A stretch of DNA of 64,000 nt from Lachnotalea glycerini (GTDB taxonomy: Bacteria > Bacillota > Clostridia > Lachnospirales > Lachnospiraceae). Made by a program: the position numbers and the translations under genes. The notes under the pieces were generated by a model. The model saw only the letters and a list, made by a program, of their open reading frames with translations, had not been told where the DNA came from and searched no databases. The stretch lies in contig NZ_QICS01000005.1 in the NCBI RefSeq assembly GCF_003201285.1, positions 203,893 to 267,892 on the forward strand, in the 5' to 3' direction. Below are positions 39,452 to 56,917 of the stretch, piece after piece. Each line of letters starts with the position of its first letter. Positions within the stretch are counted from its first letter, which is position 1.

Positions 39452-40789
39452 CTATCCAATTTGCGTAATAACTAAGTGTGCCGAAACAGCTCTTGTTCCA
39501 CCTGCATTAGCCGTTATAGTTAATGCTGTTGAATTTCCAGAAGGATTTCGGACGGTTAAAACGGAATTGATTGTTGTTGTAGTAACAAGTGCCATTCCTA
39601 TAATCTGTGAAGTTCCTGTTGCTCTTCCAACTACTGTATAAGCTAACTCAGAGGCATTAAGAGTTAATATTAATTGCCCTGCTTCACTTACACTTACTTG
39701 GAATAATACCTGGTAGGTTCCTATTGCTCCTAAAGTAAATGAACTAGCGCTTGTACGTGTTATATTGGTTCCACCTATTGGACCATCTGATGGGAAACTT
39801 ACGTCTGCACCTACTGCAACTGTAGATGGGTTATCAGGTGGCATCAATGCGTAAAAGTCAGCAAATGCTACGACTCCTCCGGTGGCTCCTGTTGGACCAG
39901 TTGGACCTGTGGCTCCTGTATCTCCTGTCGCTCCCGTTGGGCCGGTTGGACCTGTGGCTCCTGTCGCTCCTGTATCTCCTGTCGCTCCCGTTGCTCCCGT
40001 TGGACCTGTGGCTCCTGTCGCTCCCGTATCTCCTGTCGCTCCCGTTGGGCCGGTTGGACCTGTCGCTCCTGTCGCTCCCGTATCTCCTGTGGCTCCTGTT
40101 GAACCAGTTGGACCGGTGGCTCCTGTCGCTCCCGTATCTCCTGTCGCTCCCGTTGCTCCCGTTGGACCTGTGGCTCCTGTCGCTCCCGTATCTCCTGTGG
40201 CTCCTGTTGAACCGGTAGCTCCTGTTGGACCCGTGGCTCCTGTATCTCCTGTGGCTCCTGTTGAACCGGTAGCTCCTGTTGGACCCGTGGCTCCTGTCGC
40301 TCCCGTATCTCCTGTCGCTCCTGTTGGACCGGTTGGACCTGTCGCTCCTGTTGAACCTGTGGCTCCCGTTGCTCCTGTGGCTCCTGTTGGACCTGTGGCT
40401 CCTGTTGGACCTGTGGCTCCTGTCGAACCGGTGGCTCCTGTCGAACCGGTGGCTCCTGTTGGACCTGTGGCTCCTGTTGAACCGGTGGCTCCTGTTGGAC
40501 CTGTGGCTCCTGTTGGACCTGTGGCTCCTGTCGCACCTGTTGGACCTGTCGCTCCTGTTGGACCGGTGGCTCCTGTTGAACCGGTAGCTCCTGTTGGACC
40601 TGTGGCTCCTGTTGGACCGGTGGCTCCCGTTGGACCGGTGGCTCCCGTTGCTCCCGTTGCTCCTGTGGCTCCTGTTGGACCTGTGGCTCCTGTTGAACCG
40701 GTGGCTCCTGTTGGACCTGTGGCTCCTGTTGGACCGGTGGCTCCTGTTGGACCGGTGGCTCCTGTTGAACCGGTAGCTCCTGTTGAACC
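39452..40789 (-). CDS. collagen-like (BclA-type) gene, C-terminal part, separated from its start
   Basis: This frame of 445 codons plus stop consists of about 100 Gly-X-Thr triplets (GPT, GAT, GST) from 40789 to about 39885. A folded C-terminal domain follows ([12 protein letters not shown]... to VITQIG, about 134 residues) of the BclA C-terminal type that trimerises collagen-like spore surface proteins. Between the recombinase stop (40832) and the repeats there is no ATG, and the first Met is at 39847, so this part has no proper start. It is the 3' end of the gene that begins at 56917. The frame joins exactly if elements C, B and A are removed at the predicted crossover points. Confidence 0.9.
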
Positions 40790-40819
40790 GGTTATATTAG
40801 GAAAACAAAATGCCTTTTT
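40789..40819 (-). other. attachment-site end of element C (recombinase side)
   Basis: On the minus strand AAAAAGGCATTTTGTTTTC, then CTAATATAAC (10 bases), then CG at the Thr-Gly junction. The same end sequence AAAAGGCAGTTTGTTTTC stands behind the recombinase of elements A and B. Confidence 0.75.
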
Positions 40820-40831
40820 ATTAGCGGTCTG

Positions 40832-42505
40832 TTAAACCGCTTCGGATTGAGTGTTGATTTCTATGTATTCCATTATCCGGCGTAGTTCGTCAGCGAATTT
40901 AAACTTCACACTGATGTTGCCGTTCTCATGTACCTTGATATGGTCTACAAGCTCAACTAAAACCTCTCTTGTCAGTTTGTCGATATTTTCAAACTTCTTG
41001 AAAACCACCAAGCAAGGACTTTCGGCGGTAATGCCGTTTTGTAATTCCTCACGCTCTGCATTGAGGTTTTTCAAAACTTCGCCTAAAGCGGCTATTTGCC
41101 GTTCGTAATCTTCGCTCATATGGCGGTAATCGCTATGGGTGATTTCTCCGTCTTTCCAATCCTGATAAATGGATTGCTTGTAGCGCATGATTTTGTAGCG
41201 TTCCTTTTCTTTTGCGTCTATCAATGCTTCAATCCGTATGGACTGGCTTTTTTGAAGCGGAGCCGTGCTGATATATTCCAGCGTGTTTGCATAGTGTACC
41301 GCAAGATATACCTGTTGCTGAATGGCATACAGGACAGCCGCTTCCAGCCGGTTATGCTTCACGGAATGTTTGGTGCAGGCTGTTTTTGACTGGTCTTTGT
41401 AGGTGCGGCAGAAATAATACACCATGCCTTTTACTTGACTGCGGCTCATAGCCTTACCGCAATCGGCACAACGGAGAAAGCCACTGAACAGATAGAGTTT
41501 CTTTTTCTGTGGTGCGGTGCGGGTGTCACGCTTTAGCAACTCCTGCACTTTTTCAAAGATAGGCTGTTCTATGATTGGCTCATGGGTATTCTCCACAATG
41601 TACCATTCATTTTCGGGAACCTGTTCCTGCGTATGTATCTTATAGCTTTTCACGCGCTGGCGGCCTTGTACCATGTCCCCTACATAAAGGCGGTTTTTCA
41701 AAATGTCGCTTACAGTCTTTGCACTCCATAACGGCCTTTCCGAACCGCTCGGATTTTGATAGTTTAAGCCTTTGCTTTTCTTGTACTCGGACGGACACAA
41801 AATGCCACGGTCATTGAGATTGTGTACTATGGCATTTTTACTCATGCCGTCCAGAAACCACTCATAAATGTTTTTTACAATCTCGGCGGCTTCTTCATCA
41901 ACGATTAAGGCATTTTTATCCTTTGGGTTTTTCATGTAGCCATAAGCGGCAAACCCGCCGATAAACTCACCATTGCGCCGCTTCATATCAAAAACCTGCC
42001 GTATCTTCTTTGAAGTCTGATAGCAGAAATTGTCATTGATAACATTAGTAATCGGTACAATGAGGTTGGAAATGCTGTCCGGGTTCAAGTAGCTGTCAAT
42101 ACCCTCTGCCAAGCTGATAAACCGTACATTCATCTGTACAAACAGATTTTCAATCAAGCTTCCTGCGTCCGTGTAGTTACGGGAGAGGCGGGAGAGGTCT
42201 TTAACGATAACACAGTTTACCTTTTTGGCGTATATGTCGGAAAGTAATCTTTGAAAGCTGTCCCGGTTGGTGTCTGTTCCAGTGTACCCGTCGTCCACAT
42301 AAGGCGGTTGGGTACTTTCAAACTCGTCTATGTGCTGTTGGTAGTAATCATCAAGCAATGCTTTTTGGTTGGTAACACTGTTGCTGTCGTCCTTTCCACG
42401 GTTTATGTCCTCTTTGGATAAGCGGATATATTGAGCGAGTTTCCAGCGGATATTTTGAGATGCGGATATTTTTTCCTCAAAGCCCCTGTTTTTTGTTCGT
42501 GCCAT
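40832..42505 (-). CDS. large serine recombinase of element C
   Basis: This 557-residue site-specific recombinase has a resolvase catalytic domain (about 22-170) with YIRLS (catalytic Ser30) and [11 protein letters not shown]. The recombinase domain (about 190-300) carries [21 protein letters not shown], the zinc ribbon CADCGK...YYFC...C is near 340-375, and a coiled coil and DUF4368-type end follow ([13 protein letters not shown]). It excises and integrates element C. Its catalytic domain differs clearly from those of elements A and B, while the part from about residue 180 onward is closely alike. ATG at 42505 follows GGAAGGAGG. Confidence 0.93.
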
Positions 42506-56590: not shown

Positions 56591-56604
56591 AAGAACCGCA
56601 TTTT

Positions 56605-56639
56605 AAAAGGCAGTTTGTTTTCCTAATATTAATGTAGCG
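56605..56639 (+). other. attachment-site end of element A (recombinase side)
   Basis: AAAAGGCAGTTTGTTTTC, then CTAATATTAATGTAG (15 bases), then CG at the Thr-Gly junction. Confidence 0.75.
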
Positions 56640-56917
56640 GTAGCTCCTGTTGAACCTGTAGGTCCTGTAGATCCTGTTGCTCCAACTGGTCCTTGCGGAC
56701 CAAATGGACCTTGTGGACCTTGTAAACCTTGTGCACCCTGTATTCCTTGTGGACCTTGGAAGCCTCTGGGGCCTTGTGGACCTTGCAGACCTCTTGGACC
56801 TGTAGGTCCAGTAGGTCCCGGAGGACCTGGCCTACATCCAGAAGTTCCACCGCATGAATTACAACCATTAAAACAGCTCTGAAGAGTAAGATCTTTGTCG
56901 TTATCAAATTCACCCAT
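56639..56917 (-). CDS. collagen-like (BclA-type) gene, N-terminal part
   Basis: 93 codons from ATG 56917 (SD AAAGGAG) up to the insertion point of element A. In the present arrangement translation runs 11 residues into the element and stops at 56603, giving a 104-residue truncated product. The N-terminus [19 protein letters not shown] has four Cys in [15 protein letters not shown] collagen domain follows with Gly-Pro-Gln-rich triplets (GPQ, GFQ, GLQ) changing to GST/GPT at the break. Joined to the two islands and the part at 39452-40789 it gives one 565-residue protein. The upstream promoter resembles sigma-K. A spore coat or exosporium role is inferred from BclA. Confidence 0.88.

Follow-up and report, generated by a model that had tools for sequence, protein, structure and literature searches.

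A collagen-like gene of Lachnotalea glycerini (family Lachnospiraceae) is cut into four pieces by three elements, named here A, B and C, in a 64,000-nucleotide stretch of DNA (the window; assembly GCF_003201285.1, contig NZ_QICS01000005.1, positions 203,893 to 267,892 of the forward strand). We estimate a probability of about two in three that the gene is a late mother-cell gene for a spore-surface protein and that each of the three elements excises itself in the mother cell. The elements are best read as skin-like, in part mobilizable units, which target collagen repeats at codon boundaries and are able to stack.

The initial annotation of this DNA had proposed that the four separated segments belong to one Gly-X-Thr gene, and this is confirmed by their lengths of 279, 36, 45 and 1338 nt, which are all multiples of three and add up to 1698 nt; the sizes that it gave for A, B and C (2607, 7621 and 5540 bp) likewise agree with the coordinates of the pieces (Table 1). 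As claimed, the C-terminal piece has no start of its own: its frame stays open for just 14 codons upstream of the junction, into element C, and contains no Met. A domain search recovered a serine recombinase without internal stops in each of the three elements, together with the postulated cargo genes in A, B and C. In codon terms, each junction separates a Thr (or other Y) codon from the Gly position that follows it in the Gly-X-Y (GXY) repeat, and the two islands of 36 and 45 nt amount to four and five nine-base repeats. Because all junctions lie at the same step of the nine-base repeat, their common phase follows from the choice of site and not from four independent accidents; with this phase, and with islands made of whole repeats, the frame would survive the loss of any one or more of the elements, in whatever sequence they left.

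The elements of relatives sit at the same repeat step (the relatives are samples: 24 loci from named genomes, and others from capped searches that covered 150, 391 and 397 genomes, with relatives drawn from the genus, family and class, and with the genus compared via three genomes, the host's included). The first G of the Gly codon is common to attL and attR, the two ends of an inserted element, in 10 of the 11 elements for which both ends were read (A, B, C, G002a, G002b, L023, L024, L044/L124, L128 and G048), the exception being L078. Our best guess for the crossover core is the dinucleotide CG, which in ACCGGT is self-complementary and would therefore allow insertion in both orientations, as in A versus B and C. 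The C-terminal piece contains 102 Thr-Gly steps, with Gly preceded by ACA in 65, ACC in 18, ACG in 17 and ACT in 2; although ACA is the commonest Thr codon in this position, the insertion sites of A and B have ACC and that of C has ACT. The 36-nt island would consist of two 18-bp half-sites. A core offset by one base (GCGC in B, GCT in A) was also considered; it would make attP an almost perfect palindrome of 38 bp but shift the frame at attB, and was rejected, as at most one base is shared in C, L023, L024 and L044.

The split gene is predicted to be a sporulation gene on the basis of a sigma-K-type motif, its family and the spore-forming host genome. Its layout is that of BclA-like exosporium collagens, with a leader, a GXY run and a globular C-terminal domain. 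The latter (last 143 residues) has no Pfam match itself, but matches 2142 of 3778 candidates at E 1e-8 or better and is 74-80% identical to nearly all of the best 120, most of which possess a collagen domain; among the matches listed, PF01391 occurs in most homologs and PF18573 (which we take to be BclA_C) in many. A sigma-K-type motif, AC-N15-18-CATANNNTA, was identified within 160 bp upstream in all eight cases where the start of a collagen gene could be read, six of them split genes and two unsplit ones (G000, two in G001, two in G002, L024, L078 and L128). The chance per gene is 0.25-3.75% in shuffles, and the background (42 sites in 611,216 bp) corresponds to 1.1% per 160 bp. Across nine sequences the motif precedes 7 of 122 open reading frames (ORFs) of 200 aa or more, including 4 collagen-type genes (one by similar start) and 2 glycosyltransferase genes beside collagen-type genes. 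In Clostridioides difficile, bclA1-3 are under sigma-K control, according to the available part of PMC3789822. The genes spoIVA and spoIIID score over the cut-off in all three genomes of the genus, and a sigK-like gene is present in all three, over the cut-off in one (host: 294.4 bits versus a cut-off of 298.65).

The recombinases of A, B and C each match the Resolvase, Recombinase, zinc ribbon and DUF4368 families, all four over the cut-off in B and C, with DUF4368 of A at 21.0 bits versus a cut-off of 25. The catalytic domain of TnpX (2mhc) is the best of three solved-chain matches for recombinase A; TndX is about 34% identical. The elements end with related inverted arms, with a TTTTCCTAATA-type arm at the recombinase end. 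Across members the recombinase is usually accompanied by a DUF6870 gene, found in the window in B and C; its product (AlphaFold2 model, mean predicted local distance difference test score 83) is a candidate directionality factor, as judged from position, size and promoter.

Table 1. Features of the split collagen-like gene, its three elements and their predicted promoters, in window coordinates
Feature	Position	Strand	Remarks
N-terminal piece, collagen-like gene	56639..56917	-	93 codons (279 nt), ATG start, Cys-rich leader, GXY; PF01391 on residues 34-90
Island 1, collagen-like gene	53996..54031	-	12 codons, 36 nt
Island 2, collagen-like gene	46330..46374	-	15 codons, 45 nt
C-terminal piece, collagen-like gene	39452..40789	-	445 codons and stop (1338 nt), GXT run and conserved C-terminal domain
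Sigma-K-type promoter AC-N16-CATATTATA, upstream of collagen gene	56988..57014	-	predicted
Element A	54032..56638	+	2607 bp, recombinase opposed to collagen gene direction
Large serine recombinase of A	54911..56590	+	559 aa
CATA-N17-CATATATT directly before recombinase A	54854..54884	+	predicted sigma-E-type
GNAT acetyltransferase, cargo of A	54215..54718	+	
Element B	46375..53995	-	7621 bp
Large serine recombinase of B	46416..48119	-	ORF 567 aa from GTG; 558 aa from ATG (tree version)
DUF6870 gene of B	48167..48436	-	89 aa, candidate directionality factor
CATA-N17-CATA of B's DUF6870-recombinase operon	48462..48492	-	predicted sigma-E-type
Cargo of B	48709..53630	-	response regulator 52944-53630, histidine kinase 51805-53004, FtsX-type permease 49472-51808, ABC ATPase 48709-49467
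Element C	40790..46329	-	5540 bp
Large serine recombinase of C	40832..42505	-	557 aa
TTGTTT-N17-TATAAT before recombinase C	42536..42564	-	predicted sigma-A-type
DUF6870 gene of C	42591..42854	-	87 aa, TTG start
CATA-N17-CATA of C's DUF6870 gene	42876..42906	-	predicted sigma-E-type
Cargo of C	42962..46170	-	TetR-type regulator 45538-46170, PPDK_N/PEP-utilizer protein 42962-45541
Two family-2 glycosyltransferase-like genes, downstream of collagen gene	37140..39226	-	

Phylogenetic analysis revealed that the collagen target is a property of a large part of one recombinase clade. In a first tree of 54 rows (left out were seven rows for partial second recombinases and, L078 excepted, those no longer than 500 aa), 19 rows are collagen-adjacent, and this label requires 2 changes, compared with a mean of 15.9 in shuffles (none of 500 as low); five of the 19 labels were set by hand after the script pattern had missed them (L024, L037, L039, the second element of L045, and L078), that of L037 on two or three repeats only. 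A second tree of 68 rows, with 3 outgroup rows dropped and 17 loci added (6 of them collagen-adjacent), contains 25 collagen-adjacent rows and requires 5 changes. All 25 fall within one 51-row clade (support 100), and 23 of its 26 non-collagen rows form one nested sub-clade, the examined members of which retain the TTTTCCTAATA arm and are inserted at other sites. The clade was found in collagen-type genes of Lachnospiraceae, Oscillospiraceae, Paenibacillaceae and one Peptococcaceae assembly. The link to collagen becomes weaker at 41-43% identity, where L167-L170 are not collagen-adjacent and L171 is. Searches of plasmids, phages and viral contigs returned relatives at 29-61% identity, and the nine viral loci show no collagen repeats beside the recombinase wherever this region is readable. 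As a side observation, many of the sub-clade members L079, L080, L082, L130-L138, L156 and L157 insert at sites ending ...ATCATATG or CAATCTTATG, downstream of the recombinase, which look to be near start codons of varied genes.

The motif CATA-N17-CATA was found upstream of the recombinase operon in 15 of the 19 collagen-adjacent rows of the first tree (17 if CACA is allowed), and in none of the 17 rows of the non-collagen sub-clade (its member L025 having only 187 bp upstream) or the 18 outside; it is likewise missing from all 23 sub-clade rows at other sites once the added loci are included. Its background frequency, the elements themselves included, is 2.4% per 520 bp, and the contrast of 17/19 with 0/17 gives a Fisher p of 2e-8, relatedness ignored. 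Of the added loci, 4 of the 6 beside collagen repeats have it, as does 1 of the remaining 11. We read the motif as sigma-E-type because in each of the three genomes of the genus the spoIVA promoter exhibits CATA-N17-CATATACT, with the same spacing; the spoIIID promoter is AATA-N16-CATACATT in two of these genomes, the two read at the right ORF. The sequence TAGGACAATC/TAGGACAAAC next to the -35 region may be a SpoIIID box, since in 10 of 17 promoters it agrees with the consensus WWRRACARNY, which we regard as a lead only (this string was not found in the accessible part of PMC517825). Element B has no sigma-A-type promoter left, C possesses both promoter types, and in A the recombinase follows right behind the CATA-N17 promoter. 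As each element combines its own recombinase with a predicted sporulation promoter, all three are likely cut out during spore formation.

The same arrangement recurs in other genomes. Eight split genes could be read on both sides, each with an open N-terminal part and a C-terminal part open to the stop: the one in this window, two in G002 (same genus), and those of Lacrimispora algidixylanolytica (L023), Paenibacillus oryzae (L024), G443, G048 and G061. For L023, in which the contig ends within the N-terminal part, this part was assessed by its GXY segments; that of G048 runs to the edge of the stretch read, and the halves of the second G002 gene lie on two contigs and were taken as one gene. 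More than one element occurs in the first G002 gene as well, with two, of which one spans about 25.6 kb; the G048 element measures about 28.7 kb, and sizes over the relatives range from 2.3 to about 29 kb. The initial annotation had further asked where the uninterrupted gene joins in relatives. Here the evidence is partial: G001, of the same genus, lacks such a recombinase at E 1e-20 and contains two homologous collagen genes without insert, but stretches of N within their repeats bar a base-level comparison of empty sites; neither the C-terminal domain nor one downstream gene found a match in G001 or G002, and thus no syntenic empty site was identified. One G001 locus (L122, G001:C7) shows two tandem collagen-like genes, broken by N (126 and 1), beside a glycosyltransferase-like gene.

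Taken together, these features suggest the following course of events. Sigma-E would turn on the DUF6870 gene and the recombinase in the early mother cell, from CATA-N17-CATA; the two products would bring attL and attR together; each element would leave, with attB restored at the Thr|Gly step; and sigma-K would then transcribe the rejoined gene, whose product would be placed on the spore. Only the dying mother cell would lose DNA, so that elements and cargo would be retained in the forespore. The developmental excision of skin type that the initial annotation had suggested thus finds support in the predicted promoter architecture, sigma-E-type and sigma-K-type, and in the fact that genes of other genera are split in the same way, with excision itself standing as a prediction. 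We also lean, by a narrower margin of confidence, towards a broader proposal: that these are members of a transferable family of developmentally excised "DNA introns" specialised on bacterial collagen, with the Thr|Gly step as attB, able to stack, and each with a sigma-E-type switch and germ-line cargo.

Several observations weigh against developmental excision as proposed here. No excision product or circular form of an element was observed, though reads were not searched for them. Both bases of the CG core are common to attL and attR in only 3 of the 11 elements (A, B and L023). No DUF6870 gene was found in element A, which would have to excise without this protein or borrow that of B or C; in the element of Paenibacillus chibensis (L022) the DUF6870 gene (7628-7843) ends early, at 72 aa, and the predicted fold has no match in the PDB at E 0.001. 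The CATA-N17-CATA motif was found by viewing the collagen members, so that only the contrast groups and the added loci test it, and two of the latter, L128 and L129, had been scanned for it beforehand. Among the added loci, two that are collagen-adjacent lack the motif (L162, with a stop inside the recombinase, and L171), and L129 has it with no collagen at the recombinase end and repeats only at the far-side contig edge. When target and promoter are compared on the tree, 3 of 5 independent pairs agree and none opposes (sign-test p 0.25), so common descent may account for their link. A sigma-A-type promoter precedes the recombinase in 6 of the 19 collagen-adjacent rows (C and 5 more) and in 16 of the 17 derived members, which suggests that excision in growing cells may occur.

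Or perhaps the collagen genes serve as abundant, dispensable docking sites, with the split gene simply off and excision serving transfer and not sporulation? This is the strongest competitor, although we consider it clearly the less probable explanation. It agrees with the sigma-A-type promoters just mentioned and with signs of mobility: the same-genus G002 elements L044 and L045 hold a relaxase gene (PF03432), L044 also carries a two-component and FtsX-type ABC set like that of B, and ParB-type and type IV coupling-protein genes lie beside the N-terminal part of the second G002 gene, so that some members are mobile elements of the integrative mobilizable or integrative conjugative sort. In A, B and C, no relaxase or mobilization gene was found among ten ORFs and two small ORFs scanned, which are part of their ORFs. 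Recombinase C is 98% identical to one of another species, in which the collagen gene has a different leader. Against a mere docking site speak the CATA-N17-CATA motif, which collagen-inserted elements from several families possess and all 23 sub-clade rows at other sites lack, the small elements (about 2.3-2.6 kb, as in L023 and L024) in which only DUF6870 and the recombinase are recognisable, and the fact that none of the eight split genes has lost its open frame on either side.

It appears improbable that growing cells turn a surface protein on and off reversibly, with elements leaving and re-entering the gene now and then under a sigma-A-type promoter. Such promoters do exist in some members and each gene offers many possible sites, as the 102 Thr-Gly steps of the C-terminal piece illustrate, but the collagen promoter looks sigma-K-type in all eight cases, which would leave such a switch without an outlet during growth, and small elements once excised would be lost for want of replication. 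Least probable of all is a pseudogene or an assembly artefact, for which a repeat-rich gene, a 48-contig assembly and the internal stop in the L162 recombinase might speak, and against which stand a 2.2-kb JGI contig (P0123) that separately carries recombinase A at 99% identity, seven further split genes, including those of the two named isolates L023 and L024, and the 74-80% identity of the C-terminal domain to nearly all of its best 120 matches.

Some further observations concern the elements and their surroundings. The sequence GTGTAATGTGATAG beside the sigma-A-type promoter of recombinase C (window about 42520-42540, minus strand) recurs inverted as CTATCACATTACAC near the far element end in G002 (L095, L124) and is a possible operator or accessory site; L095 and L124 also exhibit a terminator-like ACCGCCC...GGGCGGTATTTTTG just inside the element start, in the sense of the collagen transcript. 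A second case in which CATA-N17-CATA is too close to the recombinase for a DUF6870 gene to fit between them, at 62 bp from its start, is L129 (G392:C2), located elsewhere in the tree, where the recombinase-side junction seems lost. Plasmid CP141730.1 of Oscillospiraceae bacterium MB08-C2-2 (L140, 10680-10740) encodes a 61%-identical recombinase with a CATAGGACA promoter; two abutting arms lie beside it, no collagen repeat was found in the stretch, and the site looks like an unintegrated attP, whose length by hand count exceeds by 9 bp that of the attP to be expected from A, B and C. The PPDK_N/PEP-utilizer protein of C is under the cut-off for the best 25 of 26 NCBIfam models. A T-box leader (RF00230, 127 bits) was identified at 4471-4754 of the window, minus strand.

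To our knowledge, the sporulation intervening elements known so far are single cases in single genes, and we know of no sporulation promoter for recombinases of the TnpX/TndX type. These enzymes, which belong to the transposons Tn4451 and Tn5397, include the nearest solved match, TnpX, but show low identity to the recombinases described here and have other targets. Among the best matches of a literature search covering few subscription papers, no report of serine-recombinase elements in collagen-like genes was found. A DUF4368-rich clade of multi-targeting large serine recombinases has been described (PMC10083194, as far as its available text goes); it belongs to the same domain family, whereas the members studied here cluster on collagen repeats, and the word collagen does not occur in the main text of that paper.

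The arrangement as such is of a known kind, represented by skin, SP-beta/spsM, gin/gerE and yin/yabG, as these are described in the accessible portions of the papers cited. As in the skin elements of C. difficile and B. subtilis, which split sigK (PMC5025042, PMC517825), a serine-recombinase element interrupts a mother-cell gene. In C. difficile, skin leaves by means of a constitutive recombinase and a factor under sigma-E and SpoIIID (PMC5025042), and the predicted layout of C, i.e. a sigma-E-type promoter, a small gene, a sigma-A-type promoter and the recombinase, resembles it, while that of A resembles B. subtilis skin, in which the recombinase itself is under sigma-E (PMC517825). Unlike skin, A, B and C contain no recognised phage genes, relatives vary from 2.3 to about 29 kb, the target is a repeated codon step in collagen genes and not a sigK site, three elements are stacked and carry cargo, and excision here is only predicted. 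The gin element in gerE of Bacillus cereus ATCC10987 is also non-phage, interrupts a late mother-cell gene and leaves at sporulation with a recombinase and a small factor (GirC, GirX), but it is one 28.6-kb element with three recombinases of 22-26% identity (PMC5595907), whereas here three elements with related recombinases occupy three sites in one gene. In spsM (SP-beta, PMC4191935) and yabG (yin, PMC10747680), sporulation genes are likewise rejoined by excision of mobile elements, which are, unlike those reported here, prophages or prophage-like. The recurrence within a clade, and a sporulation-type promoter where the target is collagen (none found in the sub-clade at other sites), open a broader question to testing, namely whether mobile elements adjust to the development of their host by entering genes needed only in the terminal cell. 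In comparison with the known systems, the new features are a collagen-repeat target common to much of one recombinase clade, the link between target and promoter type, and the codon-phased stacking of three cargo-bearing elements in one gene, which the repeat-based integration site permits.

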